Positions 5,124-27,124 of a stretch of DNA of 64,000 nt are shown piece by piece (positions within the stretch are counted from its first letter, which is position 1; each line of letters starts with the position of its first letter). The stretch spans positions 1-64,000 of the forward strand of contig NZ_JAJAVG010000004.1 in assembly GCF_020531915.1 (NCBI RefSeq), given 5' to 3'. The position numbers and the translations under genes were made by a program. Under the pieces are notes generated by a model, which saw only the letters and a list, made by a program, of their open reading frames with translations, searched no databases and was not told the DNA's origin. The DNA is from Methylovorus mays (GTDB lineage: Bacteria; Pseudomonadota; Gammaproteobacteria; Burkholderiales; Methylophilaceae).

Positions 5124-5270
5124 TCGTTGAGTATTCATCTAATTGAAATGAATTGTTGTACGGCGCTCGAACTGACCTGCCTTTTAAATTCATGGGCTTG
5201 AATGTGTCGTACAATATCAGGATGTGCTCTTGTGAAGACTTATTGCAAGAGTTGATGTTCTGGAAGCCAA

Positions 5271-5315
5271 AAACAAAAACGCACCGACATCTAAAATGTA
5301 CAGTGCGTTTTGTTT
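5271..5315 (-). terminator. intrinsic terminator of tRNA-Leu
   Basis: Read on the minus strand, directly after the tRNA, an inverted repeat pairs AAACAAAACGCAC with GTGCGTTTTTGTTT around an 18-base loop and runs into T-rich sequence. It lies 5 bases beyond the CCA end of the tRNA, as expected for a transcription terminator. Confidence 0.7.
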
Positions 5316-5320
5316 GTATC

Positions 5321-5405
5321 TGGTGCCCAGAAGAGGACTCGAACCTCCACACCCGAAGGCACATGGACCTGAACCATGCGCGTCTACCAATTCCGCCATC
5401 TGGGC
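5321..5405 (-). tRNA. tRNA-Leu (anticodon CAG)
   Basis: The minus strand reads GCCCAGATGGCGGAATTGG at the 5' end and closes with a matching acceptor arm and encoded CCA. The T-arm GGTTCGAGTCC is canonical. The anticodon loop TTCAGGT gives CAG, decoding CTG leucine codons. The 85-base length, with an extra variable-arm helix (TGCCTTCGGGTGT region), is right for a class II leucine tRNA. Confidence 0.96.
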
Positions 5406-5482
5406 TTTCTTAGATGCTTGTGCATCGAAAGAGCCGAGATTTTATATCAACAAAAAAGTTTGTCAAATGGAATATTTAAAGA

Positions 5483-7927
5483 ATGAAAAAGAAATCGCGT
5501 AACGCCAGTATAAGCCATGTGCGTAAAGCCGACCCTTATGCCAAGCGCGAAGCCGAGAATTATGCTAACCCCTTGCCTAGTCGTGAGCTCATCCTTGATG
5601 TGATGACTGAGCAGGGTGTGCCCGTGAGTGTTGAGCAGTTATATGAGCTGGTCGGCATTTCGGAAGAAGAGCGGGAGATTTTTAATCGCCGCCTGAATGC
5701 GATGGAGCGCGATGGTCAAATCATGCGTAACCGCAAGGGCGCATTGTGTATTGCCGAGAAGCTGAATCTGATTGCTGGCCGTGTGGTCGGGCATGCTGAT
5801 GGGTTTGGCTTTCTGGTGCCTGACCATGGCGGGGATGATCTGTTTTTGAGTCCGCGTGAAATGTCGCAAGTCATGCACGGTGATCGTGTCATGGTGCGTC
5901 CCGCAGGCTTTGACCGCCGTGGACGTCCCGAGGGCAAGATTGTGGAAGTGCTGGAGCGCTCCACGAAAAAGCTGGTAGGGCGTTTAATCCGCGAGCAGGG
6001 CGTGACCTTTGTTGCTGCCGAGGACAAGCGGGTGAATCAGGATATTCTAGTGCCGCCCGGGCAGGACATGAATGCCGGTGCAGGCCAGGTAGTGATGGTG
6101 GAGCTGATTGAGCAGCCGTCCGCCTATGCCAAGCCTATCGGCAAGGTGGTGGAAGTGCTGGGCAACTATGCGGACTCCGGTATGGAGATCGAAATTGCCT
6201 TGCGCAAGCATCAGTTGCCGTATGAGTTTTCTGCGGAAGCGGAAAAGCAGGCGGCCAAGTATCCCAAACAGGTACGCCCAGCGGATTACAAAGGTCGTAT
6301 TGATCTGCGTGACATGCCATTGATCACCATCGACGGCGAAACCGCGCGAGATTTTGACGATGCCGTCTACTGCGAGCCGCAAGGCAAAGGCTGGCGCCTG
6401 GTAGTGGCGATTGCCGATGTCAGTTTTTACGTCAAACCTGGCGATGCGCTGGACAAGGATGCTTATGACCGAGGCAATTCGGTTTACTTCCCTCGCCGCG
6501 TGATCCCGATGTTGCCGGAAGCGCTTTCCAATGGCCTGTGTTCGCTCAATCCGGATGTAGAGCGCTTGTGCATGGTCTGTGATATGCAGATTGATGCCCT
6601 GGGCAAGATCAAGCGTTATGAGTTCTATCCTTCCGTGATGCGCTCCAAGGCGCGCATGACCTACACCAAGGTGTTTGACATCATCAGCCACCCGGATGGC
6701 GAGCTGGCAAAAGAGTATGCATGGTTGGTGCCGCATATCGACCATTTGTACAGCCTTTACAAGATATTGCTCAAGGCCCGAGAAAAACGCGGTGCGATTG
6801 AGTTTGAAAGCACCGAAACCCTCATGATTTTTAACGATAACGGCAAGATAGACCGCATTGAGGCCGTTACGCGTAATGAAGCTCATAGGCTGATTGAAGA
6901 ATGCATGCTGGCCGCCAACGTCTGCTCCGCCGACTTTTTGATTCAGCACGAACAGTCCGGTCTGTATCGTATTCACGAAGGGCCTACTCCGGAAAAACTG
7001 GAGGCCCTACGCACATTCCTGGGTGAGTTCGGCTTTGGCGTAGGCGGTGGCGATACCCCACATGCCAAGGATTACGGCAAGGTGATTTCCCGTATCAAGG
7101 GGCGCCCGGATGAGCAGCTTTTGCAAACCGTTCTCCTGCGATCCATGCAACAGGCGGTTTACAGCCCGGATAATGTCGGCCACTTTGGCCTGGCATACGA
7201 GGCTTACACGCACTTTACCTCGCCCATTCGTCGCTACCCTGACTTGCTGGTGCATCGCGCCATCAAGGCCGTGCTGAATGGCGAACGCTACAAGGCGGGT
7301 GACTGGCAGGCTCTGGGGCAACATTGCTCCATGACCGAGCGGCGTGCGGATGATGCCACCCGTGATGTGCAGGCCTGGCTCAAGTGCTATTACATGCAGG
7401 ATAAAATCGGCGAGGAGTTTGCCGGTACTGTGGCTGGCGTGACCAGTTTTGGATTGTTTGTCGCGCTGGACGGTATCTTTGTCGAAGGCTTGTTGCATGT
7501 GACCGAGCTCGGCAATGACTACTTCATCTACGATAAGACCCGCCACGAAATGGCAGGGGAGCGGACGGGCGTGAAATACCGCCTCGGTGATCGCCTGCGC
7601 GTCAAGATAAGCCGAGTGGACCTGGAAGTCAGTCGCATCGACTTTGTGCTGGCCTCGTCTGACAAGGCAAAAAATACCGTGCCGGATGAAGCCTTTGCGC
7701 AAGAGGGTGGGGCAGATGGTGATACAATTCGGCTCGCCAAGCCGCGCCGCTCTGCCGATAGAAAGCCTGCAGCCAGCGCTGGTGCCCGGCCTCGCACGGC
7801 AGCCAAGCCGTCGCGCAGCAAGTCAGCAGCCAAACCTGCTGCTAAGCCAAGAAAGAGCAGCGCATCCAAGCCTGGCGCAAAATCAGGCGCCAAGGTGTCC
7901 TCCCGTAAAACCAGTAAAAGGTCATAA
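5483..7927 (+). CDS. rnr: ribonuclease R
   Basis: An 814-residue processive 3'-to-5' exoribonuclease, close in length to the E. coli enzyme. Order of domains: N-terminal helix-turn-helix-like segment (about 25-85), cold-shock OB domains (about 90-240), RNB catalytic domain (about 255-590) with the metal-binding Asp cluster TIDGETARDFDDAVY, S1 domain (about 645-730), and a basic tail (about 750-814) made of Lys, Ala, Ser and Pro. It degrades structured RNA and takes part in rRNA quality control. It is followed six bases later by rlmB, the usual partner. The ATG at 5483 is the first in frame. Confidence 0.96.
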   Translation: MKKKSRNASISHVRKADPYAKREAENYANPLPSRELILDVMTEQGVPVSVEQLYELVGISEEEREIFNRRLNAMERDGQIMRNRKGALCIAEKLNLIAGRVVGHADGFGFLVPDHGGDDLFLSPREMSQVMHGDRVMVRPAGFDRRGRPEGKIVEVLERSTKKLVGRLIREQGVTFVAAEDKRVNQDILVPPGQDMNAGAGQVVMVELIEQPSAYAKPIGKVVEVLGNYADSGMEIEIALRKHQLPYEFSAEAEKQAAKYPKQVRPADYKGRIDLRDMPLITIDGETARDFDDAVYCEPQGKGWRLVVAIADVSFYVKPGDALDKDAYDRGNSVYFPRRVIPMLPEALSNGLCSLNPDVERLCMVCDMQIDALGKIKRYEFYPSVMRSKARMTYTKVFDIISHPDGELAKEYAWLVPHIDHLYSLYKILLKAREKRGAIEFESTETLMIFNDNGKIDRIEAVTRNEAHRLIEECMLAANVCSADFLIQHEQSGLYRIHEGPTPEKLEALRTFLGEFGFGVGGGDTPHAKDYGKVISRIKGRPDEQLLQTVLLRSMQQAVYSPDNVGHFGLAYEAYTHFTSPIRRYPDLLVHRAIKAVLNGERYKAGDWQALGQHCSMTERRADDATRDVQAWLKCYYMQDKIGEEFAGTVAGVTSFGLFVALDGIFVEGLLHVTELGNDYFIYDKTRHEMAGERTGVKYRLGDRLRVKISRVDLEVSRIDFVLASSDKAKNTVPDEAFAQEGGADGDTIRLAKPRRSADRKPAASAGARPRTAAKPSRSKSAAKPAAKPRKSSASKPGAKSGAKVSSRKTSKRS

Positions 7928-7933
7928 GTTGTA

Positions 7934-8683
7934 ATGAGTGATAGCCGTATATTGTTTGGATTTCATGCCGTCTTGAGCCGCCTGCGTCAGCATGCGGCCA
8001 GCGTGCAGGAAATCCTGATAGACAAAGATCGTGTGGACGCCCGCATGAAGGACCTGATCAACCTGGCGGAAGGTGCCTCAGTGCGTCTGATGCAGGTGGA
8101 GCGTTCCCGCCTGGATGGCATGGCGGGCGCTAACGGACGCCATCAGGGCGTGATTGCGCGGGTGGTGGATACGCCGATTCCTTACAAGGATATTCACGAT
8201 ATTCTGGAGTCGGATCTGACTGAGCCCCCATTTTTCCTGGTGCTGGATGGGGTGGAAGATCCCCATAACCTGGGTGCCTGCCTGCGCGTGGCGGATGCCA
8301 TGGGTGTGCATGCGGTGATTGCCCCCAAGGATAGAGCCGCAGGTCTGAATGCGACCGTGCGCAAAGTCGCGTGCGGTGCAGCCGAAACCATTCCTTTCAT
8401 CGCCGTGACCAATTTGGCGCGTACCCTGCGCGAGTTGCAGGAGGCTGGTGTGTTTGTTGTTGGTGCTGCGGCTGATGCACCGGGCAATCTGTTCACCACC
8501 AAGCTGGACGGACCGTTGGCGCTGGTGCTGGGGGCTGAAGGCGCCGGTTTACGCCGTCTTACCGCTGAAACCTGCGATACGCTGGTAAGCATTCCCATGT
8601 TCGGCTCGGTAGAGAGCTTGAACGTATCGGTGGCGAGTGGCATTTGCCTGTACGAGGCAAGGCGCCAGCGTAACGCGATTTAA
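7934..8683 (+). CDS. rlmB: 23S rRNA (guanosine-2251-2'-O)-methyltransferase
   Basis: A SpoU/TrmH-family (SPOUT) methyltransferase of 249 residues. It has an N-terminal substrate-binding domain (about 1-75), [19 protein letters not shown] (motif 1), [15 protein letters not shown] (motif 2) and [18 protein letters not shown] (motif 3, the knotted SAM site). It methylates the ribose of G2251 in the peptidyl-transferase loop of 23S rRNA. The gene follows rnr by six bases and shares its operon. Length and motifs leave little doubt. Confidence 0.95.
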
Positions 8684-8710
8684 GCTTGCTTATCCTGTAA
8701 ACAAGAGTCT

Positions 8711-8750
8711 CCCGCCCGGCAAGGCTGGATTTTGCCGCGTGGGTTTATTT
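8711..8750 (+). terminator. probable intrinsic terminator after rlmB
   Basis: An imperfect hairpin pairs CCCGCCCGGCAA with TTGCCGCGTGGG and is followed by TTTATTTT. It lies 28 bases after rlmB and before ndk, so it probably ends the rnr-rlmB transcript. The stem has internal mismatches, hence moderate confidence. Confidence 0.55.
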
Positions 8751-8757
8751 TAAACTG

Positions 8758-8774
8758 CTAAAATGCTATTTTAG
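8758..8774. repeat. perfect inverted repeat upstream of ndk
   Basis: CTAAAAT-GCT-ATTTTAG is a perfect 7-3-7 palindrome about 35 bases before the ndk start. It lies where the ndk promoter should be, so it may be part of a -10 region or an operator. No matching regulator was recognised. Confidence 0.4.
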
Positions 8775-8809
8775 TCGGTTTTTCGTAGTGTTAATTTTTT
8801 GGAGCTATC

Positions 8810-9235
8810 ATGGCTGTTGAACGTACCCTTTCCATTATCAAACCCGATGCTGTTGCCAAGAATGTCATCGGCAAGATCTACACCCGCTTTGAAGATGCTG
8901 GCCTGAAGATTGTTGCTTCGCGCCTGGCACAACTGTCACAAGCTGAAGCTGAAGGCTTCTATGCTGTGCACAAAGAGCGTCCTTTCTTTGCTGACCTGGT
9001 CAAGTTCATGATCTCCGGTCCTGTGGTTATTCAAGTGCTGGAAGGCGAAAACGCTGTTCTGGCACATCGTGACCTGATGGGCGCAACTGATCCGAAAAAG
9101 GCAGCACCTGGCACCATCCGCGCTGACTTCGCTGAAAGCATCGACGCCAATGCCGTGCACGGTAGTGATTCCGTTGAGAATGCCGCGATTGAAATCGCTT
9201 ACTTCTTCCCGGCTTCGCAAGTTCACAGCCGCTAA
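8810..9235 (+). CDS. ndk: nucleoside diphosphate kinase
   Basis: A 141-residue NDK that moves the gamma phosphate from ATP to nucleoside diphosphates through a phospho-histidine. The N-terminal [16 protein letters not shown] and the active-site segment [12 protein letters not shown], with the catalytic His near residue 117, are both complete. Length is normal for the bacterial tetramer type. A GGAGC ribosome binding site precedes the ATG. The rlmN gene follows six bases after the stop, so both are probably co-transcribed. Confidence 0.97.
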
Positions 9236-9241
9236 GTTGCA

Positions 9242-10345
9242 ATGACCGTTAATCTGCTCAATTACAGCCAGCCTCAACTCGCCGAGTATTTTCATGGCCT
9301 GGGCGAAAAACCTTTTCGCGCCAAACAGTTGATGCGCTGGATGCATCACTTCGGGGTGCATGATTTTGATCAGATGACGGATATTGCCAAATCGCTGCGC
9401 GACAAGCTGAAAGACCAGGCGGAAATCACCCCGCCTGGAATCAAGCTTGAGCAGATTTCTGAAGATGGTACACGTAAATGGCTGATTGATGCCGGTACCG
9501 GGAATGGGGTGGAAACCGTATTTATTCCCGAAGCTGAGCGCGGTACGCTGTGTGTGTCTTCACAAGTCGGTTGTGCGCTGGAGTGTACGTTTTGCTCTAC
9601 GGGGCGCCAAGGTTTTAATCGCAATTTGACCGTATCTGAAATCATCGGTCAGCTGTGGGTCGCCAACAAAGCGCTGGGGCGTGACCCCAAAGGCGATCGC
9701 ATTATCAGCAATGTGGTGATGATGGGCATGGGTGAGCCTTTGGCCAATTTTGATAATGTGGTCACGGCACTCAATATCATGCTGGATGACTCCGCCTATG
9801 GCCTGAGTCGTCGACGCGTCACCGTCTCCACGTCGGGTATGGTGCCTGCCATGGACCGTCTGCGTGAGACATGCCCGGTGGCGCTCGCTGTGTCACTGCA
9901 TGCACCAAACGATGCCTTGCGGGATGTGATTGTGCCTATCAACAAAAAATACCCGATCAAGGAACTGATGGCTGCTTGCCAGCGCTATCTTGAAAAAGCC
10001 CCACGTGATTTTGTGACGTTTGAATATGTGATGCTGGATGGGGTGAACGACAGTGTGGAGCATGCCCGTCAATTGCTGGATATCGTGCGCGATGTCCCAT
10101 GCAAATTCAACCTCATTCCATTTAACCCATTCCCGAACAGTGGCTACGATACTTCCAAGCCCGAGGCCATTCGTCGTTTCCGTGATGTGCTGATGCAGGC
10201 AGATTATGTGGTGACAACGCGCAAGACGCGGGGGGATGATATCGATGCTGCCTGCGGTCAACTTGCTGGCAAGGTCCAGGATAAAACGCGGCGCACTGAA
10301 CGCAATAAAGTCATGCAGGTTATATCGGTGGAGAAAACAGTTTGA
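9242..10345 (+). CDS. rlmN: dual-specificity 23S rRNA/tRNA adenine C2-methyltransferase
   Basis: A 367-residue radical-SAM enzyme that methylates C2 of A2503 in 23S rRNA and A37 of some tRNAs. The CxxxCxxC iron-sulfur motif is in [28 protein letters not shown] segment and the C-terminal cysteine in DIDAACGQL, which forms the methyl-Cys intermediate, are present. The stop codon overlaps the TTG start of pilF, giving tight coupling in an ndk-rlmN-pilF-rodZ-ispG-hisS series, the order known from many beta- and gammaproteobacteria. Confidence 0.96.
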
Positions 10346-11097
10346 AACGTTGGCTGATGGTGGTGTTGATCGGCCTGGCTGGATGCGCTGAGCAGCAAGC
10401 CCAGCCTTACAGTGCTGGCGAAACGAGTGCACGTGAGCGTGCCCGCGTTCATACGGAATTGGGCGCAGGGTATTTTGCCCAGAACCAGATGGCCATTGCG
10501 CTTGAAGAGTTTACCGAGGCCATTCGCATTGATGGCAGCTATGCCATGGCTTATAACGGCCTGGGGCTGGTGTATGGCGCATTGCGGGAAGATGCCAAGG
10601 CCGACAGCAACTTCAAGCGTGCCTTGCAGATTGAGCCCAACAATTCGGAGTCGCGTAATAATTACGGCTCCTTCCTGTGCTCGCGTAATCGTATTGATGA
10701 GTCCATCGTACAATTTACCGAGGCGGTTAAAAACCCGCTCTATGCCACGCCTGGAGTGGCATATATGAATGCCGGGATTTGCGCCTTGAAGAAAAAAGAT
10801 GAAAAGGCTGCAGAGAGGTATCTTGAGAAAGCCTTGCAGGCGCAGCCTCTGTTACAAACCGCCGCCTATCAGTTGGCGACCATCCAGTTTAATCGTGGCC
10901 AGGTAGGTATTGCCCGCAATACTCTGAAAAATGCCCTGGTTAACAACCCCAGCCCAGAGACTTTATGGCTGGGCATCCGCATCGAGCGCATCCTGGGTGA
11001 TCGCGATGCAGAAGCAAGCTATGCCTTGTTGCTGCGTAAAAAATATCCGAATTCCGAACAAACCAAGGCACTTCTTTCAGGGCAACAATCGCAATGA
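10342..11097 (+). CDS. pilF: type IV pilus biogenesis/stability lipoprotein PilF (PilW)
   Basis: A 251-residue outer-membrane lipoprotein with about six TPR repeats. The signal peptide ends in the lipobox LAGC near residue 16. TPR units run from about residue 35 to 230, for example [19 protein letters not shown] and [18 protein letters not shown]. PilF/PilW pilots the secretin PilQ to the outer membrane. The start is a TTG inside the rlmN stop, preceded by GGTGGAG, which serves as ribosome binding site. No other pilus genes are in the window, but this isolated position between rlmN and rodZ is the normal one. Confidence 0.9.
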
Positions 11098-12089
11098 CGG
11101 AAACCACACCAGTAACACCTGATACGCAGGAAACCGCAGGTTCTGCGTCTTTTCATGCATCCTCTATCGGCGCTACCTTGCGTGCCGCTCGTGAACAAAA
11201 AGGCCTGTCTGTCATCGACATTCATGCGCGCCTGCGCATCAGTGAGCGTCAGATACATGCGCTGGAGACCGATGACTTTTCCTTGTTGCCTGAGCCTACC
11301 ATTACGCGTGGCTTCATACGCAATTACGCCAAGTTTCTTGAGATTGATGCTGAGCCTCTGCTGGCAACTTATCGGGCGCAAATGCCTTCGGAAGAGCATA
11401 AGAACATCAGTATTCCATCGGCCAACATTCCGATTACCCAATCGCGCACCACGGATTGGAAAAAGTACATCTATGCTAGCGCGTTGGTGTTACTGGGGGC
11501 GGGTATCTGGCTGTTGTATGACGAGAATTTGATCCCGAAAATTCCTGATCTGCATCTGAATAGTTCCAGCAGCGAAGTGAGTCCGGGCAATGAAGAAAGC
11601 CTGCCGCAAGCCGCGTTGCCCGCGGCCGAGCGTGAGTCCGCCGCTACGCAGATGCCTGCGCAAGGAGAGGCCTTTGCACTCCCTCCCGAGCAAACAAAAG
11701 ATCAGGCGAGCGCCGCATCCCTTGCAGAGCCACAGGCTCCTGCCACTGCCATTCCAGCTACACCACCTGCTGCACAGCCAGTGCCAGCGGTGCCCGGTGC
11801 AACAACGGCTCCCGCGAGTACTAATGCTGATAGCACAAGTTCTTCCGTAGCCTTGCACAAGGTCCGCCTGGTGTTTACCGAAGATAGCTGGGTCAGCATT
11901 GTTGATCGCCATGGCAAAGAGATTTTCAATAAAACCAAGCGCGCTGGCAGTGAAGACGCCGTGGAGGGGGAACCTCCCTTGAAGGTGACCATCGGTAACG
12001 CTGCCGGTAGCCAATTGATTTATGACGATAAACCGGTGGATACCGCGCCATATAACCGGCTTAACGTCGTCCGCATTACACTGGAGTAA
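11094..12089 (+). CDS. rodZ: RodZ-like cytoskeletal membrane protein
   Basis: A 331-residue bitopic protein. An N-terminal Xre-type helix-turn-helix lies at about 20-90 ([15 protein letters not shown], then [12 protein letters not shown]). One membrane helix follows at about 122-145, then a long Ala/Pro/Ser-rich periplasmic linker and a C-terminal DUF4115 beta domain at about 255-331 ([18 protein letters not shown]). RodZ links MreB to the cell-wall elongation complex. Its start overlaps the pilF stop by four bases, and ispG begins two bases after it. The low-complexity linker is usual for the family. Confidence 0.9.
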
Positions 12090-12091
12090 TC

Positions 12092-13378
12092 GTGAGTCAG
12101 CAACAAGCCTTGAAACGCCGCCCCTGCAATCTGGTGATGGTGGGCCATGTTCCCTTGGGCGGCGGCGCCCCGGTGGTTGTGCAATCCATGACCAACACCG
12201 ATACCGCCGATGCTGCTGCCACCGTCCAGCAGGTGTTCGAGCTGTGGCAGGCAGGTTCCGAGCTGGTGCGTATTACCGTCAATTCCCCGGAAGCCGCCGC
12301 ACAGGTCAGCATCATTCGCCGCGAACTGGATGCCATGGGCTGTAATGTCCCGCTCGTAGGCGACTTTCACTACAACGGACACAAACTGCTGGCGCAATAT
12401 CCTGATTGCGCTGAAGCGTTGGCCAAATACCGTATCAATCCAGGCAATGTCGGCAAGGGCAGCAAGCGCGATGAGCAGTTTGCTGCCATGATAGAAGCTG
12501 CCATCCATTACCAGAAGCCCGTGCGCATCGGGGTGAACTGGGGCAGTCTGGATCAGGAAAAAATGGCGCGCATGATGGACGAAAACGCGCAGCGAGCAGA
12601 GCCCTTGTCAGCCGATGCTCTGATGCGTGAGGCCCTTATTCAGTCAGCCCTGGAAAGTGCTGCCCAGGCCGAGGCGCTGGGGCTGCCATCCAATTTCATT
12701 ACCATTTCCTGCAAGGTAAGTGATGTACAGGATCTGGTGACCGTCTATCGTGATCTTGCCTCCCGTTGTACTTATCCCTTGCACCTGGGGTTGACCGAAG
12801 CCGGCATGGGCTCCAAAGGCATTGTTGCTTCTACAGCTGCACTGGCATTATTGCTGCAAGAGGGCATAGGCGACACCATCCGTGTATCGCTCACGCCTGA
12901 GCCCGGTGAAGCCCGCACCAAGGAAGTGGTCGTGGCGCAAGAAATCCTGCAGGTCATGGGAATCCGTTCTTTCACCCCATTGGTAACGGCTTGTCCTGGC
13001 TGCGGTCGCACCACTTCCACATTTTTCCAGGAGCTCGCCCAAAAAATCCAGCGCTATCTGCGTGAACAAATGCCGATATGGCGCAGTCAGTATCCGGGTG
13101 TAGAAACCATGAGCGTGGCCGTCATGGGGTGTGTCGTTAACGGCCCTGGGGAATCCAAGCTGGCGAATATCGGTATCAGTCTGCCTGGTACGGGTGAGGT
13201 ACCTGTTGCGCCCGTATTTGTTGATGGCCAGAAAACCGTCACGCTTAAGGGCGACGCGATTGCGGAAGAGTTTCAGACGATAGTGGAAGACTACGTTCAA
13301 AAGAATTACGCCGAAGGCGGCAAGCTGCGTCAGTCGCTGCCATTGCAGCAAAAGACCATTCCGCTCAAGGCAATATAA
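12092..13378 (+). CDS. ispG: (E)-4-hydroxy-3-methylbut-2-enyl-diphosphate synthase
   Basis: A 428-residue iron-sulfur enzyme of the MEP isoprenoid pathway, also called GcpE, converting the cyclic diphosphate MEcPP to HMBPP. The proteobacterial form has an N-terminal TIM barrel ([19 protein letters not shown]), an insert, and a C-terminal [4Fe-4S] domain whose ligands are in CPGCGRT and [10 protein letters not shown]. The start is a GTG two bases after the rodZ stop. It is followed closely by hisS. Confidence 0.96.
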
Positions 13379-13393
13379 AAAGCAATTAATAAC

Positions 13394-14650
13394 ATGGCTG
13401 ATAAATTTCAAAGCATTAAAGGTTTTTACGACATCCTGCCCGAGCAAACGGCGCTCTGGCAAAAGCTGGAAGACACGGCCAGGCAAGTGCTTGGCCAATA
13501 TGGTTATCGCAATATCCGCATGCCGATTGTTGAGCCCACTGATCTGTTCATTCGCAGCGTGGGTGAGCATACCGATATCGTGGAAAAAGAGATGTATTCC
13601 TGGGTGGACGCACTGAATGGCGACAAGCTGACCCTGCGGCCAGAAGGTACGGCGGGCTGCGTTCGAGCCGTGGTTGAGCACAGCCTGACCTACAATGGTC
13701 CGCAGCGCTTGTGGTATATGGGCCCGATGTTCCGTCATGAAAATGTGCAGAAGGGCCGTCAGCGCCAGTTTCATCAGATAGGCGTGGAAGCTTTCGGTTA
13801 TGCCCAGCCCGAAGTTGATGCCGAGCAGATCATGCTGCTTGCCCGCTTGTGGCGCGCACTGGGATTGACCGACGTGAAATTGCAACTGAATACCATAGGC
13901 GATGCTGCCGAGCGGGCGGAATACCGTCAGGTACTCATTGCCTATTTTGAGCAGCATGCCGACTTGCTGGATGAGGATGCCAAGCGTCGCCTGCATACCA
14001 ATCCCTTGCGTATTCTGGATAGTAAAAATCCCCGCATGCAAGCCATGATAGAGGGCGCCCCCCGCTTGCTGGATACCCTGGGTGGGGAAAGTCGTGCCCA
14101 CTTTGATGCGGTATGTGCATTGTTGACGGCAGCGAATATTCCTTTTGTGCTCAATACGCGTCTGGTGCGCGGTCTGGATTATTACAACCGTACCGTGTTT
14201 GAGTGGGTGACCACCCGTCTCGGCAGCCAAGGCACGATTGCCGGTGGTGGGCGTTACGATACCCTGGTCGAGCGCCTGGGTGGCGATGCCACGCCGGCTT
14301 GCGGCTTTGGCATCGGTCTTGAGCGCGTGTTCTTGCTGATGCAGGAATATGGCATCGAGGCTACTCAGGGCCTGGATGGGTATCTGGTTAATCTGGGGGA
14401 GCAGGCCGAGCGGCTGGCACCTCAGGTAGCTGAACAATTGCGCGATGCCGGGATTTCCGTGGCCTTGCACACTGGTGGCGGCAGTTTCAAGTCGCAAATG
14501 AAAAAAGCGGACCGCAGCGGTGCGCGTTTCGCCTTGATCCTCGGCGATGATGAAGCCAAGGCCGGCGAGATTACCCTCAAGCCCATGCTGAGTGGGGGCG
14601 AGCAACAACGACTCGATTTGCTACAGGCGATACAACACTTGAAGGAGTGA
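13394..14650 (+). CDS. hisS: histidyl-tRNA synthetase
   Basis: A 418-residue class II aminoacyl-tRNA synthetase. Motif 2 is in MFRHENVQKGRQRQFHQIG, the His-specific LVRGLDYYNRTVFEW segment is present, and motif 3 is in ACGFGIGLERV. An anticodon-binding domain covers about residues 325-418. The length is typical. It belongs to the ispG-hisS pair, but here it is followed by two ABC ATPase genes instead of directly by yfgM. Confidence 0.97.
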   Translation: MADKFQSIKGFYDILPEQTALWQKLEDTARQVLGQYGYRNIRMPIVEPTDLFIRSVGEHTDIVEKEMYSWVDALNGDKLTLRPEGTAGCVRAVVEHSLTYNGPQRLWYMGPMFRHENVQKGRQRQFHQIGVEAFGYAQPEVDAEQIMLLARLWRALGLTDVKLQLNTIGDAAERAEYRQVLIAYFEQHADLLDEDAKRRLHTNPLRILDSKNPRMQAMIEGAPRLLDTLGGESRAHFDAVCALLTAANIPFVLNTRLVRGLDYYNRTVFEWVTTRLGSQGTIAGGGRYDTLVERLGGDATPACGFGIGLERVFLLMQEYGIEATQGLDGYLVNLGEQAERLAPQVAEQLRDAGISVALHTGGGSFKSQMKKADRSGARFALILGDDEAKAGEITLKPMLSGGEQQRLDLLQAIQHLKE

Positions 14651-14654
14651 GCCC

Positions 14655-15491
14655 ATGACTGCCTTGCTGCGCATGGAAGAACTGACGGTTGTCCCGGTTA
14701 AATCGCCCCAGCGCAAGCTGGTCAATCAGGTATCTTTTGTGCTGGAGTCAGGCAAAACCACCTGTGTGGTAGGCGAGTCGGGCAGCGGCAAAAGCCTGAC
14801 AGCGCTGTCGGTGATGGGTCTTCTGTCCGAGCAACTTCAGCGCATCCATGGCCGTGTCATTTTTCAGGGGCGGGATCTGGCTTCCCTGAGTTCAGAGGAA
14901 ATGCGCGGCATTCGCGGCAAACAAATAGGCATGATTTTCCAGGAGCCGATGACCTCGCTGAATCCTGTGCTGAAGGTGGGGTATCAGATAGGCGAGAGCC
15001 TGACGGAGCATCTTGGCCTGCGTGGAAAAGCCCTGCGGGCAAAGGTAGGCAGCCTGCTTGAGCAGGTGGGCATACCGGCAGAGCGCGCAGACAGTTATCC
15101 CGATGAGCTTTCTGGCGGACAGCGACAGCGTGTGATGATCGCCATGAGTATCGCTTGCGAGCCTGCCATGCTGATTGCCGATGAACCGACGACCGCGCTG
15201 GATGTGACAGTGCAGGCACAGATTCTCAAATTGCTGGATGAACTCAAAACCCGCATGAACATGGGCATGCTGTTCATCACCCATGATTTTGGTGTGGTGG
15301 CGGATATCGCCGACGATGTCGTGGTCATGTTCCGCGGCGAGATTGTCGAGTCTGGTCCGGTGGCAAATGTGCTGGGCAATCCCCAGCATCCTTATACCCA
15401 GGCCTTGCTGGATTGTGTGCCCGATGCCGATGGTAAAAAGCCGTTGAAGCCGATTGATTATGCCTGGCTAACAAAGGGAGCCAACCCATGA
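14655..15491 (+). CDS. peptide-type ABC transporter ATPase (DppD/OppD-like)
   Basis: A 278-residue ABC ATPase with Walker [12 protein letters not shown], signature [15 protein letters not shown] and Walker [14 protein letters not shown], plus the H-loop [10 protein letters not shown]-terminal [13 protein letters not shown] segment is the oligopeptide/dipeptide ATPase extension. It normally works with a second ATPase, two permeases and a binding protein. Only the second ATPase is found here, immediately downstream with a four-base overlap; no permease or binding protein is adjacent. The pair interrupts the common hisS-yfgM-bamB-der order. Substrate unknown; a peptide or microcin-type role as for YejF is possible. 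Confidence 0.85.
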
Positions 15492-22401: not shown

Positions 22402-24657
22402 CTAGTAGGTAAACTCGGCCACTATGCGGACATTTCGTCCGGGAGCAATATTGCCGATTGTCCCACCAAATGCCCCATCCAGCCGATACTCCTTGTTGTT
22501 CAGGTTTTCACCAATCAAGCGGAATCCCACATTTTTGGTCGCAGCCCAATGTATGCCTGCGTTAAACACCTCATAGCGATCCTGTGTCCCGAACTCCAGG
22601 GGGATGAAGCCACCACCTGCTGTGACCACGGTACGCTCGGAAACCCGTCGGTAACTGACATTCACGTCTACGTTTGCATTCAGGCTGCCACCAAGGGTGA
22701 TGTTGAAGGCGTTGCCAGGCACGGTATACAGGGGAATATATTCTTCACCATCAAACAGTTTGCCGGTTATGCGCGAATAGGACATACGGCCATATAACCG
22801 ACGTGTCGACATCGTGCTTTCGAATTCGACGCCATTTCGACGCTCCCATCCATCCTGAACAATCTCCCCCGCATCGTTCTGGCGCAGAGACGTCAGCAGG
22901 TGGCTGGTGCGTATATGGAAAAAATTCAACTTTGATGTGAACTGGATATCGCTACCGAACAATCGTGGAGTCTGGTAACTGATGCCTGCTTCAGTGGATT
23001 CCGAAGTTTGGGGGCGATAAAGATCACCACAAATCTGCGAGTCCGGGCCATTGGACATGAAGAAGCTCAGACAACGGCTGAATACCCCTTGCGTGAAATA
23101 TTCATCCACTAATGGCGGGCGAAATCCCTGCCCATAATTGCTGTAAAGCGTGAGTTGCTGGTTTGCGGCTTGCGGCAATAAGGCATAGGCCAAGCCCAGG
23201 CTGTAACTTTCCTGACGAAATTTGATGGTAGATGCCTGATCATACTGCTCAAGCAGATCCAAGGTGCCGCCTGCGGCATCGACCTGATAAAAGTCTTTGC
23301 GGAATCCGGGCATGATGCTGAATCGTCCCACGCTCAGCTTGGGTTGCAGATAATAGGCAACGTAAGATTTGGTGCCCGGGGGCGCCGAGGCATTAAAGCC
23401 ATCCGGATAGAACGTCTGGCTATAGGCAGTATTGTCGAAATAGCGGCTCACTTCACGCTGGTTTTTGTTGTATTGCAGGCCAAGCAAAAGCTCCAGGCTC
23501 AAGTCTTTATGCTGGATCACGCGGGAGCGGTTGCTGATGTCGAGATTGGTCGTTTCGTAGCGGTAGTAATCATTCAGGTTGCCACGACAAAGAACGGGAG
23601 TGCAAGCCGGGTTGATGCTCGACATGCCGGGATAGATCAAATCATGCAGGTCTGTGTAGCCTTTGCCAAATATGGCTTTGAAATCCACCCAGCGGTTGTC
23701 AGGACGGTAATGCAGGGTTTCTGACCAGGTCAGGTCTTCAATGCTGCGGATAACATTGCCGAATGTACCTGGTTGTCCGCCAGTGGCGTCATAAGGCTGC
23801 AGGCCGCTGTCTTCAAAACTGACGATGGAGGTTGTCAGCTGCACGCTTTCGCTTGGGAAAACGCTGACTTTAAGCAGCTTGGAAATGGAATTGATCGCCG
23901 AGTTTTCCAGCCTGACACCTCCTGGCTGCATGATGTCGTTGGACTGACGATTGGAATAGTTGAAGAGAATATCAATCCGGTCATCCGGCCGTCCATACAC
24001 CATGTATGAGCGCGAATATTCGTCGTTGTTATTGGCATAGCCGAATTTGGCGCGTGCACCATAGCGTTGGCCAGGCTGCAGCAGGTCAGCGGCATCTTTG
24101 GTGGTGGCAATAATGGTGCCGCCCAGTGAACCCGAGCCACTGGTAATTTGTGGCCCGCGCTGTACTTCCACACTTTTCAGCAGTTCAGGCTCAAGGAAGG
24201 TGCCGCCCATGCGGTATTTCTCAAACCCCTTGGGGATACCGTCCACTTTTACGGCGACATCCTCATTGTCGGCATATCCGCGTATGTTGAATGACATGCC
24301 GCTGGGACGCGGTCCGCCGTTGATCGCCACACTGGGCACATCCTTAATGGCATCAAACAACGTGGCGGGTTGCAGGCGCTCCAGATCTTCGCTGGTGATG
24401 GTGGTGATGGCACGTGTGGTGTCAATGCGCTCATCTTCAACGTGGCGTGCACTTACGCTTACTTCCGGCAATGTTTGCTCATTGGGTTCGCTGGTGGCAG
24501 CCTTTGTGCTGCTATTCAACGTAGTGTCTGTTGTCGTGTTTTCGTTACCCACAAGTTCAGCGTGAGCAGGAGCCGATAGCGTGTTAAATGCGACAACGAA
24601 AATAATCATTAGCCGTCGCGCGTCATGCGGACGGATTCCGACAGGCGGAATTAACAT
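22402..24657 (-). CDS. TonB-dependent heme/hemoglobin-type receptor
   Basis: A 751-residue outer-membrane receptor. A signal peptide (about residues 17-34, ending APAHA) precedes a plug domain with SFNIRGYADNEDVAVKVDG and VEVQRGPQITSGSGSLGG, then a 22-strand barrel ending in a C-terminal aromatic (AEFTY). The plug resembles the hemoglobin/transferrin/lactoferrin receptor group (TIGR01785/01786 type), and the barrel has a QGFRPPLVDEYF segment like the FRAP box of heme receptors. It lies downstream of a PEP-CTERM gene and a Fur-controlled small gene on the same strand. Heme or a heme protein is the best guess for substrate; another iron source is possible. An internal ATG at 24609 would shorten the signal peptide. 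Confidence 0.85.
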   Translation of the reverse strand: MLIPPVGIRPHDARRLMIIFVVAFNTLSAPAHAELVGNENTTTDTTLNSSTKAATSEPNEQTLPEVSVSARHVEDERIDTTRAITTITSEDLERLQPATLFDAIKDVPSVAINGGPRPSGMSFNIRGYADNEDVAVKVDGIPKGFEKYRMGGTFLEPELLKSVEVQRGPQITSGSGSLGGTIIATTKDAADLLQPGQRYGARAKFGYANNNDEYSRSYMVYGRPDDRIDILFNYSNRQSNDIMQPGGVRLENSAINSISKLLKVSVFPSESVQLTTSIVSFEDSGLQPYDATGGQPGTFGNVIRSIEDLTWSETLHYRPDNRWVDFKAIFGKGYTDLHDLIYPGMSSINPACTPVLCRGNLNDYYRYETTNLDISNRSRVIQHKDLSLELLLGLQYNKNQREVSRYFDNTAYSQTFYPDGFNASAPPGTKSYVAYYLQPKLSVGRFSIMPGFRKDFYQVDAAGGTLDLLEQYDQASTIKFRQESYSLGLAYALLPQAANQQLTLYSNYGQGFRPPLVDEYFTQGVFSRCLSFFMSNGPDSQICGDLYRPQTSESTEAGISYQTPRLFGSDIQFTSKLNFFHIRTSHLLTSLRQNDAGEIVQDGWERRNGVEFESTMSTRRLYGRMSYSRITGKLFDGEEYIPLYTVPGNAFNITLGGSLNANVDVNVSYRRVSERTVVTAGGGFIPLEFGTQDRYEVFNAGIHWAATKNVGFRLIGENLNNKEYRLDGAFGGTIGNIAPGRNVRIVAEFTY

Positions 24658-24680
24658 GAGAGGGGCCCAGATCAGGACAG

Positions 24681-24706
24681 AAAAAGCCCCGACCAGGGGT
24701 CGGGGC
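24681..24706 (-). terminator. intrinsic terminator after the PEP-CTERM gene
   Basis: On the minus strand GCCCCGACC pairs with GGTCGGGGC around a short loop, followed by TTTTT. It stands between the PEP-CTERM gene and the receptor gene. It should reduce expression of the receptor relative to the upstream genes unless the receptor has its own promoter. Confidence 0.85.
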
Positions 24707-24712
24707 GAAGGC

Positions 24713-25393
24713 TTATGCCAGGTTGTAGCGGTTTTTGCTGCGGCGTCGACCCATGAATCCGATCAAGCCTAAGCCCGCAGCCATCATGCCGTAGGTTTCA
24801 GGCTCTGGGACTGGAGAGGTCGCAATCGGTGTCGATGGCAATGCAACGGTAGCCAGTGCAAGCTGATCCAGGCTCATGCTGGAGCTGGTTGAGCTGAACG
24901 CAAATGTATAGAGCGAGGAGGCCGCCACATTGCTCCATACCCAGTACAACTCTTGTTCTGCCGAGGTGCCACCCATTACCGTGCCTTGGCCTTCATTGAA
25001 TGCCAGGGTGGATGTGGCTGCAACACCATTTAGTGTCGCCGTGGTGTTAGCTACCGTACCCAAGGTGCTAATCCGCAGATACACATCAAAGAAGCCCGAT
25101 GTTGCGCTGCTGACCAGAGTGGAAACGAAGCTGGTAGCCGTGGCAAAGCTGTAGATATTGCCGCCGCTGGTGACGAAGGATGTGCCGCTGGTTTCTTTGA
25201 CCGTGCCGCCAGAACCATAGTCAGCCGAGTTGTCGGTAGTGCCGCCAAAATTGTCCCATGCGGCAAAATCGGTCAGGCTTGCGCTGCCCCAGGGTGCGGC
25301 AGAATCCCAGACATTGGTGGTAGCGAAAGCGGAGCCGCTGAATGCAGCGCCCAGCATCAGGGTAAGTGCGGATAGTTTTGTAGATAACGTCAT
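24713..25393 (-). CDS. PEP-CTERM-sorted exported protein
   Basis: A 226-residue exported protein. A signal peptide covers about 1-24 (cleavage after SAFA). A Ser/Thr/Gly/Ala-rich, cysteine-free region of probable beta structure follows. The C-terminus is a full PEP-CTERM sorting signal: VPEPETYGMM, a hydrophobic helix, and RRRSKNR. Such proteins are processed by exosortase (EpsH/XrtA) and usually end up at the outer surface or in the exopolysaccharide layer. No exosortase gene is in the window. The gene lies between a Fur-box-controlled small gene and a heme-type TonB receptor, which suggests a role at the cell surface in iron or heme capture; this is inference. It is not recognisably a HasA hemophore. 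Confidence 0.85.
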   Translation of the reverse strand: MTLSTKLSALTLMLGAAFSGSAFATTNVWDSAAPWGSASLTDFAAWDNFGGTTDNSADYGSGGTVKETSGTSFVTSGGNIYSFATATSFVSTLVSSATSGFFDVYLRISTLGTVANTTATLNGVAATSTLAFNEGQGTVMGGTSAEQELYWVWSNVAASSLYTFAFSSTSSSMSLDQLALATVALPSTPIATSPVPEPETYGMMAAGLGLIGFMGRRRSKNRYNLA

Positions 25394-25519
25394 GATAGTC
25401 CTCGTGAATATGCCGTTGACCCTTCCTCTCGAAGGCGCTGTTAGGCGATTGGCTCAACATTACAAATCCACGGTCCCACACCGTCGGATGAATACAACAA
25501 CCGGCCAGGCCGGGGTAAA

Positions 25520-25747
25520 TCAGGATTCCAGAAGTGTTGCCATTTCGGTTGCAGGGCTGGTTTCAATGCCCTTGGGCTGAAAGTCGACCACAAAACGATA
25601 TTGTTTGCCGCAGTCGATGATGACTTCCTTCTGGCCCCGACGCAGGATGCGCATTTCGACTTTAAGATTGCCAAAGCCGTCATGCCCGATCAGATCGTCA
25701 AATAGCGACAGCAGGCATTTTTTTGCGGAGGATGGAGTAGTGGACAT
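25520..25747 (-). CDS. small Fur-controlled protein, distantly HemP/HmuP-like
   Basis: A 75-residue soluble protein. The centre reads RRGQKEVIIDCGKQYRFVV, which resembles the HemP/HmuP core (a G-x-x-E-V-x-I segment, then G-x-x-Y-R). HmuP is a small activator of heme-receptor genes in some Betaproteobacteria and rhizobia. The frame opens at an ATG at 25783, but that codon lies inside the -10 element; the ATG at 25747 has GGGAAG upstream and fits the predicted transcript. The assignment to HemP is weak, because the typical KLILTK ending is missing. What is clear is the position directly under a Fur-box promoter, with a PEP-CTERM gene and a TonB receptor downstream. Confidence 0.6.
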   Translation of the reverse strand: MSTTPSSAKKCLLSLFDDLIGHDGFGNLKVEMRILRRGQKEVIIDCGKQYRFVVDFQPKGIETSPATEMATLLES

Positions 25748-25781
25748 CGTACAGGGCTTCCCGGTTATCTTAATTTTCAAC

Positions 25782-25811
25782 AATGATAATGATTATCATT
25801 TGATAAATCAA
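25782..25811 (-). promoter_or_regulatory. Fur box within a sigma-70-type promoter
   Basis: AATGATAATGATTATCATT at 25782-25800 is a perfect 9-1-9 palindrome and contains the ideal Fur 7-1-7 pattern. On the minus strand it lies inside a promoter with -35 TTGATT (25811-25806), a 17-base spacer and -10 TATCAT (25788-25783). Iron-loaded Fur should block this promoter. The first gene downstream is the small HemP-like gene. Rightward genes could also be affected. Confidence 0.9.
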
Positions 25812-26335: not shown

Positions 26336-27124
26336 ATGTCGATATTATCAGCCATCATTTTTACCAACCTGGCCGGTGGCGTACTCAGTATTCTGTGTGC
26401 AGCACTATTTGTGTTAAAGGCTCGTCCAGCATGGATTCCCATGCTGGTAAGCTATGCCATTGGTGCCTTGCTCGGTGCCGCATTCCTGGAAATATTGCCG
26501 CATGCGTTGCATGAAGCCTCCAGCGTGGAGGCAATGGCGATGACGGTGTTGTTTGGCATCTTGCTGTTTTTTATTTTGGAAAAGCTCGTGTTGTGGCGGC
26601 ATTGCCATGGCAATGAGTGCGAGGCTCACAGCGGCCATGAACCAGCAGCATCCTCACACGATCACGGGCATGATCATGGTCGTAGCGGCATGATGATCAT
26701 GGTGGGCGATACCTTTCATAATTTTGTGGATGGCATATTGATTGCCGCGGCGTTTATGGTCGACATGAAGCTGGGGATGGTAACGGCCCTGGCGATTATC
26801 GCGCATGAAATTCCACAGGAAGTCGGGGATTTCCTGATTCTGTTGCATTCGGGCTATACCAAGCGTCAGGCCATTCTGCTGAATCTGCTTTCCAGCCTGG
26901 CGACATTGGGTGGCGGTTTGCTTGCCTACTTTGCCTTGCAGACGGTACAAGGCTGGATTCCCTATATTCTGGGCCTGGCTGCTGCCAGCATGATTTATGT
27001 CGCGGTCGCAGATTTGATTCCCGGTTTGCACAAGCGGACCGAACTCAAGGCGACCGTTCAGCAGGTGCTATTGATCATGCTTGGCATTGCTTCTATCTGG
27101 CTCACCAAGTTTTTCCTGGAGTAG
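26336..27124 (+). CDS. ZIP-family metal transporter
   Basis: A 262-residue membrane protein with about eight helices. Between helices 3 and 4 is a His-rich cytoplasmic loop (HSGHEP, then HDHGHDHG). Helix 4 has FHNFVDGILIAAAF and helix 5 has IIAHEIPQEVGDF, the metal-site signatures of ZIP proteins, which import zinc, iron or manganese. It is close to the ZupT/GufA-like bacterial branch. The nearby Fur-controlled module may be chance. The 3' end overlaps a convergent gene by 57 bases. Confidence 0.9.
   Translation: MSILSAIIFTNLAGGVLSILCAALFVLKARPAWIPMLVSYAIGALLGAAFLEILPHALHEASSVEAMAMTVLFGILLFFILEKLVLWRHCHGNECEAHSGHEPAASSHDHGHDHGRSGMMIMVGDTFHNFVDGILIAAAFMVDMKLGMVTALAIIAHEIPQEVGDFLILLHSGYTKRQAILLNLLSSLATLGGGLLAYFALQTVQGWIPYILGLAAASMIYVAVADLIPGLHKRTELKATVQQVLLIMLGIASIWLTKFFLE

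Follow-up and report, generated by a model that had tools for sequence, protein, structure and literature searches.

A Fur-box-associated gene trio in Methylovorus mays: a remote HemP relative, a PEP-CTERM protein and a heme-type TonB-dependent receptor in a probable heme-uptake module

Methylovorus mays (Methylophilaceae), a bacterium that feeds on methanol, carries, in a stretch of 64,000 nucleotides (contig NZ_JAJAVG010000004.1, positions 1 to 64,000; hereafter "the window", 64 kb), a compact minus-strand locus in which a Fur-type palindrome is followed by the gene of a small 75-aa protein, the gene of a PEP-CTERM protein, a hairpin with a T run, and the gene of a TonB-dependent receptor (Table 1). 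We use HEM as a working name for the small protein and refer to the PEP-CTERM protein as the partner. A preliminary description, made from the DNA letters, had interpreted these genes as an iron-controlled surface module, and the order HEM, PEP-CTERM gene, receptor on one strand that it gave is borne out by our analysis. We propose, with a probability of roughly 0.68, that the trio is a Fur-repressed module for the uptake of heme (or of hemoproteins), which includes HEM as a regulator and the PEP-CTERM protein as a surface partner that presents heme to the receptor.

Table 1. Features of the candidate heme-uptake locus in the window
Feature	Position	Strand	Basis
Sigma-70-like promoter TTGATT, 17 nt, TATCAT, overlapping the Fur box	25783..25811	-	consensus match, by itself not above chance
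Fur-box-like perfect palindrome AATGATAATGATTATCATT	25782..25800	no strand	motif search; recurs upstream of HEM
HEM, 75-aa open reading frame (ORF)	25520..25747	-	ORF and sequence comparison; predicted alpha-beta-beta-beta, remote HemP relative
PEP-CTERM protein (partner), 226 aa	24713..25393	-	Pfam/NCBIfam; predicted beta-sandwich residues 40-184, C-terminal helix 198-225
PEP-CTERM sorting signal, residues 194-218	24740..24814	-	PF07589
Intercistronic hairpin GCCCCGACC-CCT-GGTCGGGGC, then T run, ahead of the receptor gene	24686..24706	-	folding and recurrence
TonB-dependent receptor, heme/hemoglobin type, 751 aa	22402..24657	-	Pfam, NCBIfam, solved-structure comparison
Receptor plug domain, residues 78-181	24115..24426	-	PF07715

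That the three genes belong together is indicated by their distribution in a sample of 187 genomes of the family. HEM gave strong matches in 21 of them (E at most 5.3e-22); the PEP-CTERM protein was found in the same 21 genomes with E-values of 1.7e-47 or better (best elsewhere: 1e-11), and the receptor, at E at most 1e-60, was found in the same 21 and in none other, in a search that scored at most 5 candidates per genome. Two additional traces of HEM were a broken match in G059 (4e-6) and a weak one in G184 (E 0.009, with stops), which looks like chance. The order HEM, one to three full-length PEP genes and receptor, all on a single strand, is shared by the window and 20 other intact loci; at L066 about 1.5 kb, holding a more distant PEP-CTERM-type gene, lie between HEM and the full-length PEP gene. 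In G059 fragments of all three genes persist in unchanged order, which points to joint decay. The exosortase family (PF09721) is represented in 66 of the 187 genomes, comprising the 21 with an intact module, G059 and 44 others, with 65 of the 66 matches over the cut-off; the exosortase of the window's own genome (G000:C7:19724-20491) was recognized with an E-value of 2.4e-64. Conservation of the pairing in relatives and its company with exosortase, both raised in the preliminary description, are thus confirmed: the same 21 of 187 genomes hold the genes in the same order, with joint decay in one further genome and mostly matched duplication, and exosortase is present in 21 of 21 genomes with an intact module.

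The duplication concerns four genomes of a genus labelled g14 here, which possess a second PEP-receptor pair (L061-L064). Trees of the receptors (25) and of the PEP proteins (33) were midpoint-rooted and read by their topology. For the first module of L061-L064, the four receptors form one clade and the four upstream PEP proteins form one clade; for the second module, a further receptor clade unites the four receptors and that of L059, and the PEP proteins directly upstream of the four likewise make up a clade of their own. One of the PEP proteins of L060, not the one directly upstream of the receptor, groups with Methylophilus, as does the receptor of that locus. At L059, L060 and L061-L064 (g12, g14) there are two to four PEP paralogues per locus, mostly in distinct clades. 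The combination of co-occurrence, synteny, joint decay and parallel clades rules out that unrelated genes stand side by side here by chance, and the partnership of the PEP-CTERM protein and the receptor is strongly supported.

The receptor possesses a typical plug domain (PF07715, 65.3 bits versus a cut-off of 23.9), and its best NCBIfam model is the heme/hemoglobin receptor family TIGR01785 (E-value 5e-80, below the curated cut-off). Its nearest solved relatives by sequence are ShuA, an outer membrane heme/hemoglobin receptor (9dir, 9dhe), PhuR and HasR; the heme/hemoglobin type assigned in the preliminary description therefore stands, and none of these nearest studied homologues uses a non-iron substrate. 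Residue C543 is conserved in 25 of 25 receptor copies. The genomic surroundings point in the same direction. HemS/HmuS proteins (PF05171) are encoded in 18 of the 21 module genomes versus 1 of the 166 others (G058), counts that are inflated by shared descent. In six g12 and g14 genomes (G050, G053-G057) the HmuS match shares the strand of the receptor match and starts 136 to 148 nt past it; the genome of the window encodes HmuS on another contig. In a marine gammaproteobacterial metagenome-assembled genome (MAG; L089) receptor, HEM, a PEP-CTERM homologue and HmuS form an operon, and in Methylomonas (L094) the corresponding series consists of the receptor, HEM, a homologue of the partner that ends in VPLPA (not VPEP), HmuS, a PNPOx-type protein, a binding protein and a FecCD permease. 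The Aquabacterium-type locus L122 contains HEM, HmuS and a binding protein, according to Pfam. Because HmuS co-occurs with the module and operons with HmuS, binding protein and permease surround HEM elsewhere, we regard heme as the substrate as well supported by genomic context.

To our knowledge, few of the numerous PEP-CTERM proteins have a known job. The assignment of the partner to this class has been verified (PF07589: 35.9 bits versus a cut-off of 20.7; TIGR02595: 22.7 versus 16), and its N-terminus reads by eye as a signal peptide, with a hydrophobic stretch ending in SAFAT. The AlphaFold2 model of the partner (mean pLDDT 86) comprises the beta-sandwich and the C-terminal helix listed in Table 1. 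Foldseek returned no match to this model below 0.001 (best 6.3e-3), and the VIA comparison ranked a carbohydrate-binding domain first (Z 8.5, 116 residues, 3.0 A), followed by a mosquito salivary protein (8.4) and CBM61 (8.1), with Eph ligand-binding domains at up to 7.8; VIA Z-scores of 7-8 are typical of models without a clear match, and 8.5 is only just higher. The fold also resembles CBM35 and CBM16, and among the matches listed the best belong to families other than NEAT or HasA. Tyr81, Trp46 and Trp153 are invariant across 49 partner sequences. We predict a lectin-like beta-sandwich for the partner, in which a Tyr-based heme site is possible, and a sugar site equally so. The window's own genome also encodes proteins of this class elsewhere: it has five TIGR02595 matches and two more distantly related PEP-family paralogues, neither of which, as far as the reading of ORFs allows, adjoins a receptor gene. 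Distant relatives of the partner with no receptor nearby were likewise read in L080 (8547-9978), L081 (7928-8698) and L082 (7585-8979); in L082 two copies of a PEP-type protein read as one ORF of 464 aa, with a second PEP-like signal inside.

HEM had been credited with a HemP-like core, and this claim holds in part: there is a remote profile similarity, but HEM does not match the Pfam hemP family, and a true HemP is encoded elsewhere in the genome. In our alignment A3 of 57 HEM members, H22, G24, Q39, K40, E41, G47 and R51 are invariant and C46 is present in at least 90 %. The hhalign comparison with an alignment of 27 HemP sequences gave 79 % or, with other settings, 83 %, the latter with a score of 28.1 over 27 columns (maximum of 17.3 in 200 column shuffles; 11.0 with the reversed alignment), and the similarity spans the GQ-E-I-G-Q-YR core. 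Neither the window's HEM nor six other HEM proteins match Pfam hemP (PF10636) at E-values up to 10, nor does any Pfam or NCBIfam family score above its cut-off in these seven proteins, which rules out HEM as a known domain; sub-threshold matches to eIF2A (0.15), Prim-Pol (0.032) and Imm64 (0.22) were taken as chance. The C-terminal GKLILTK of HemP, whose LILT is invariant in the 27 HemP sequences, is absent from 19 HEM sequences. The true HemP of the window's genome (G000:C1:59660-59767, 72 bits), together with the missing hemP match, excludes HEM as a plain HemP. G214 has HEM and HemP on one contig, about 4 kb apart, and in G053 and G054, both with HEM, no HemP was found at E-values up to 1e-6. 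HemP (L079 7412-9915, on contig C1 of G000) adjoins ORFs that read by eye as tonB-exbB-exbD, and an exported-looking protein with the PEP-CTERM-like end VPEAQTYG was noticed in L079 (11155-12777).

The AlphaFold2 model of HEM (mean pLDDT 79) shows one N-terminal helix and three strands. It has no Foldseek match below 0.001, and a search of the HEM sequence against solved structures gave nothing meaningful (best E 0.26). The model weakly resembles double-stranded-RNA-binding domains and SRP14 (Z 2.4 to 3.4) and a chain of an EsaD-EsaG entry (Z 4.5), similarities that we regard as leads only. We classify HEM as a remote relative of HemP that is distinct from HemP proper. For the HemP relative ChuP of Chromobacterium violaceum, PMC9131926 reports heme binding and proposes a post-transcriptional activation of the heme receptor gene or genes; it also describes an HmuP-responsive element. 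By analogy with ChuP, HEM may be a regulator of receptor expression.

HEM is not confined to the family. At E-values up to 0.01 it was detected in 10 of 399 genomes drawn from the order, five of the 10 lying outside the family, and a scan of a collection of species genomes with the patterns RGQKE[VI]II and DCGKQYR[FY] identified 92 HEM relatives, of which 80 were kept. The scan needs such a core stretch, so that relatives lacking it would be missed and the counts lean to close forms. The first 1.6 kb or so after HEM contain a PEP protein homologue at 39 of the 80 loci, 37 of which have a same-strand receptor match (E up to 1e-10); the 41 loci without a PEP homologue have no such receptor match. 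At 28 loci HEM is followed by a pseudopilin-like ORF, of which the nearest has 262 to 349 residues, counted from the pilin motif. The remaining 13 loci, with neither a PEP homologue nor a pseudopilin, include six with less than 1.2 kb of downstream sequence, three that run into HmuS and four that are different. The HEM core is strongly conserved in records from several phyla; many of these records are MAGs and one (L152) is flagged UNVERIFIED_CONTAM, and any single placement in a distant phylum should be taken with caution.

The pseudopilin class is exemplified by L154 from Neptunomonas (5145-15403), where we recognized a protein with an N-methylation motif, a secretin, a T2SSE ATPase and a divergent di-haem oxidoreductase; a 441-aa protein of this locus that had been considered as an imelysin was dropped from that role, as Pfam identifies it as TgpA. 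Such loci look like an iron-controlled type II secretion or pilus system. Further loci of the class are L127 (7926-9495), L143, L149, L153, L155, L156 and L158. In an Omnitrophota MAG (L129, 4848-9355) HEM stands between an ORF that by eye is flavodoxin-like and a pseudopilin, with a TonB receptor of a different type upstream, all in a row on one strand. In a record from outside the Proteobacteria, a Dethiobacter MAG (L157, 7965-11294), the genes after HEM encode a NifH/frxC-family protein, a periplasmic binding protein and, by eye, a likely FecCD-type permease.

The perfect 19-base Fur palindrome reported in the preliminary description is exact and, at up to 3 mismatches, is the sole match in the window, where 0.02 matches would be expected by chance. 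The "well-formed promoter" placed around it fared less well: TTGATT-17-TATCAT does overlap the palindrome, but promoter-like matches in the region are at chance level (6 versus 5.0 expected). The box recurs at HEM genes of other genomes. A palindrome match of 14/18 or better within 150 nt upstream of HEM was found at 24 of the 39 loci with a PEP or VPLPA partner, versus 5 of 780 dinucleotide shuffles, at 8 of the 28 pseudopilin loci (4 of 560 shuffles) and at 4 of 12 other loci (4 of 240 shuffles), the 13th locus being too short. In Methylomonas HEM stands behind the receptor, so no box is expected before HEM there; the best palindrome match in the 300 nt upstream of the receptor of L094 is 10 of 18. 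We infer that the module is under Fur repression, with Fur leaving the operator at low iron.

The hairpin between the PEP and receptor genes is not mentioned in the preliminary description. In the window, the 70 nt after the PEP stop have a folding z-score of -3.7 relative to shuffles. The same value is the median for the 70 nt after the PEP stops that precede a receptor (25 gaps, 17 of them at -3 or lower), compared with a median of -1.7 after HEM, where 5 of 21 reach -3 or lower, as do 5 of the 8 such stretches that separate tandem PEP genes. The sequence of the stem varies between genera. Terminator-like elements in the region show no excess (3 versus 4.5 expected), and the case for the hairpin accordingly rests on its recurrence. 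The hairpin may act by partial termination or by protection of the mRNA, and would in this way keep the partner in excess over the receptor.

The proposed heme-uptake module would work as follows. When iron is scarce, Fur would leave its operator, as the presence of the box suggests, and the three genes would be transcribed from the promoter before HEM. HEM would most likely raise the expression of the receptor from the shared mRNA, as has been reported for HmuP and ChuP. After export, the PEP-CTERM protein would be sorted by exosortase and remain at the outer surface; its sorting signal and the exosortase are present, and its location is deduced from them. There its beta-sandwich may capture heme or a heme-bearing protein and hand it to the neighbouring receptor, a role that we propose because of the co-occurrence, the largely matched duplication and the gene order. 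The receptor would import heme with TonB-ExbB-ExbD, and HmuS, encoded elsewhere in the genome, would handle it in the cytoplasm.

A number of observations weigh against this proposal. Concerning iron control, no box stands in the 150 nt before HEM at 15 of the 39 partner-type loci, and the additional PEP-receptor pairs of g14 have no clear Fur box, their best matches in 200 nt reaching 9-13 of 18. As to the pairing, the PEP protein directly upstream of the receptor in L059 and L060 groups otherwise than its receptor in the topology of the trees, and three Aquabacterium-type loci go from HEM to HmuS without a PEP protein (Pfam on L122; L110 and L128 by eye). The partner of the window has no His or Cys at all, and its model looks like carbohydrate-binding modules and Eph ligand-binding domains. 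The receptor stays under the curated TIGR01785 cut-off (269.7 versus 316.85 bits). In the alignment with ShuA, whose His positions we take to be its heme ligands, the plug stretch TDTGHLNGTFLDP stands against FEKYRMGGTFLEP, and the position of the plug His is occupied by Arg149 in the window's receptor; the adjacent Tyr148 is invariant in 25 receptor copies. The window's receptor also has no His between FRPP and GDLY, a segment in which one copy, L061_4567, has a single His by eye. Finally, HmuS is missing in three of the 21 module genomes (G060, G061, G073).

The properties of the partner lend themselves to a different explanation of its role, which we consider somewhat doubtful yet worth keeping in mind, namely that it is part of the module, with surface polysaccharide or matrix rather than heme as its ligand, and anchors the receptor or keeps hemoproteins near without contacting heme. 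Aromatic residues of the sort of the invariant Trp46, Trp153 and Tyr81 bind sugars, and the absence of His and Cys and the likeness of the beta-sandwich to CBM61, CBM35 and CBM16 fit such a protein; however, these fold matches are weak both in Foldseek and in VIA, and the parallel clades in four genomes suit a protein-protein contact better than a generic matrix role, L059 and L060 being the misfits. A second explanation, which appears unlikely to us, concerns HEM, which might be a cytoplasmic chaperone or assembly factor for the adjacent exported protein, PEP-CTERM or pseudopilin, rather than a regulator of receptor expression. It is attractive in that 67 of the 80 HEM loci have a gene of exported type within about 1.6 kb (39 PEP/VPLPA, 28 pseudopilin), a feature shared by two otherwise unlike contexts, but it does not account well for the three loci in which HEM leads to HmuS or the one in which it leads to a NifH-like protein, a binding protein and a likely permease; the similarity to HemP, a reported regulator, and the alpha-beta-beta-beta model with its weak matches to double-stranded-RNA-binding domains and SRP14 (Z at most 3.4) also argue against it. 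Very improbable, in our opinion, is a non-heme ligand of the receptor, for example a siderophore, another tetrapyrrole or another metal complex, since the sub-cut-off score, the missing ShuA His ligands and the three genomes without HmuS, which would suit it, are opposed by the nearest solved relatives, all heme receptors, by the strong co-occurrence of HmuS and its place directly after the receptor in six g12/g14 genomes, and by the heme operons around HEM elsewhere.

Divergently from the module, at 26336-27124 on the plus strand of the window, lies a gene whose product has a His-rich loop and reads by eye as a ZIP-type metal transporter; of the 20 other intact loci, 8 have this gene in the same place next to the module.

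The proposed heme-uptake module has likenesses to several known systems. HEM resembles HemP/HmuP/ChuP (PF10636) in being a small protein encoded first in a Fur-type heme locus and in the profile of its core, but it differs in the absent Pfam match and GKLILTK, in the N-terminal helix of its model, and in that both families coexist in the window's genome. The receptor is similar in plug and barrel to ShuA, PhuR and HasR (TIGR01785), which are its best matches among solved structures; its score below the family cut-off, the ShuA His ligands that are not kept, the conserved C543 and the dedicated PEP-CTERM partner gene set it apart. In the Isd system of Gram-positive bacteria, sortase-anchored NEAT beta-sandwich proteins pass heme inward, and the module would be like it in outline, combining a sorted surface beta-sandwich protein (if the location and heme role proposed for the partner are correct) with a heme importer, although the sorting enzyme and the envelope are different. 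The hemophore pair HasA/HasR provides a TonB receptor with an extracellular partner, encoded beside it as proposed here, whereas the partner in our case has a PEP-CTERM anchor and a predicted lectin-like beta-sandwich. With PEP-CTERM/exosortase proteins (PF07589) the partner shares a sorting signal above the cut-off and the exosortase present in all 21 genomes; it would differ from them in function, as in the literature searched we found no link between PEP-CTERM proteins and heme uptake, and the retrieved part of PMC2907700 does not join the two.

One may go further and regard the module as a Gram-negative counterpart of Isd, in which exosortase-sorted beta-sandwich proteins, largely matched to their receptors, bind heme at the surface via the invariant Tyr81 and relay it inward, with HEM as an ancient HemP-related RNA-binding protein that also serves a separate iron-controlled pseudopilin/secretin system in other phyla, so that it would mark two undescribed surface routes for iron or heme. 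We consider this extended version rather improbable as a whole. If the relay is true, a sorted surface partner would be added to Gram-negative heme uptake. HEM offers a way into the study of iron-controlled surface systems of environmental bacteria, those of the pseudopilin type among them. One group of PEP-CTERM proteins is now tightly linked, genetically, to a defined process, heme uptake, which makes its function directly testable. In the relatives of M. mays the trio is kept or lost together, which suggests that these bacteria may have an undescribed way to catch heme outside the cell.

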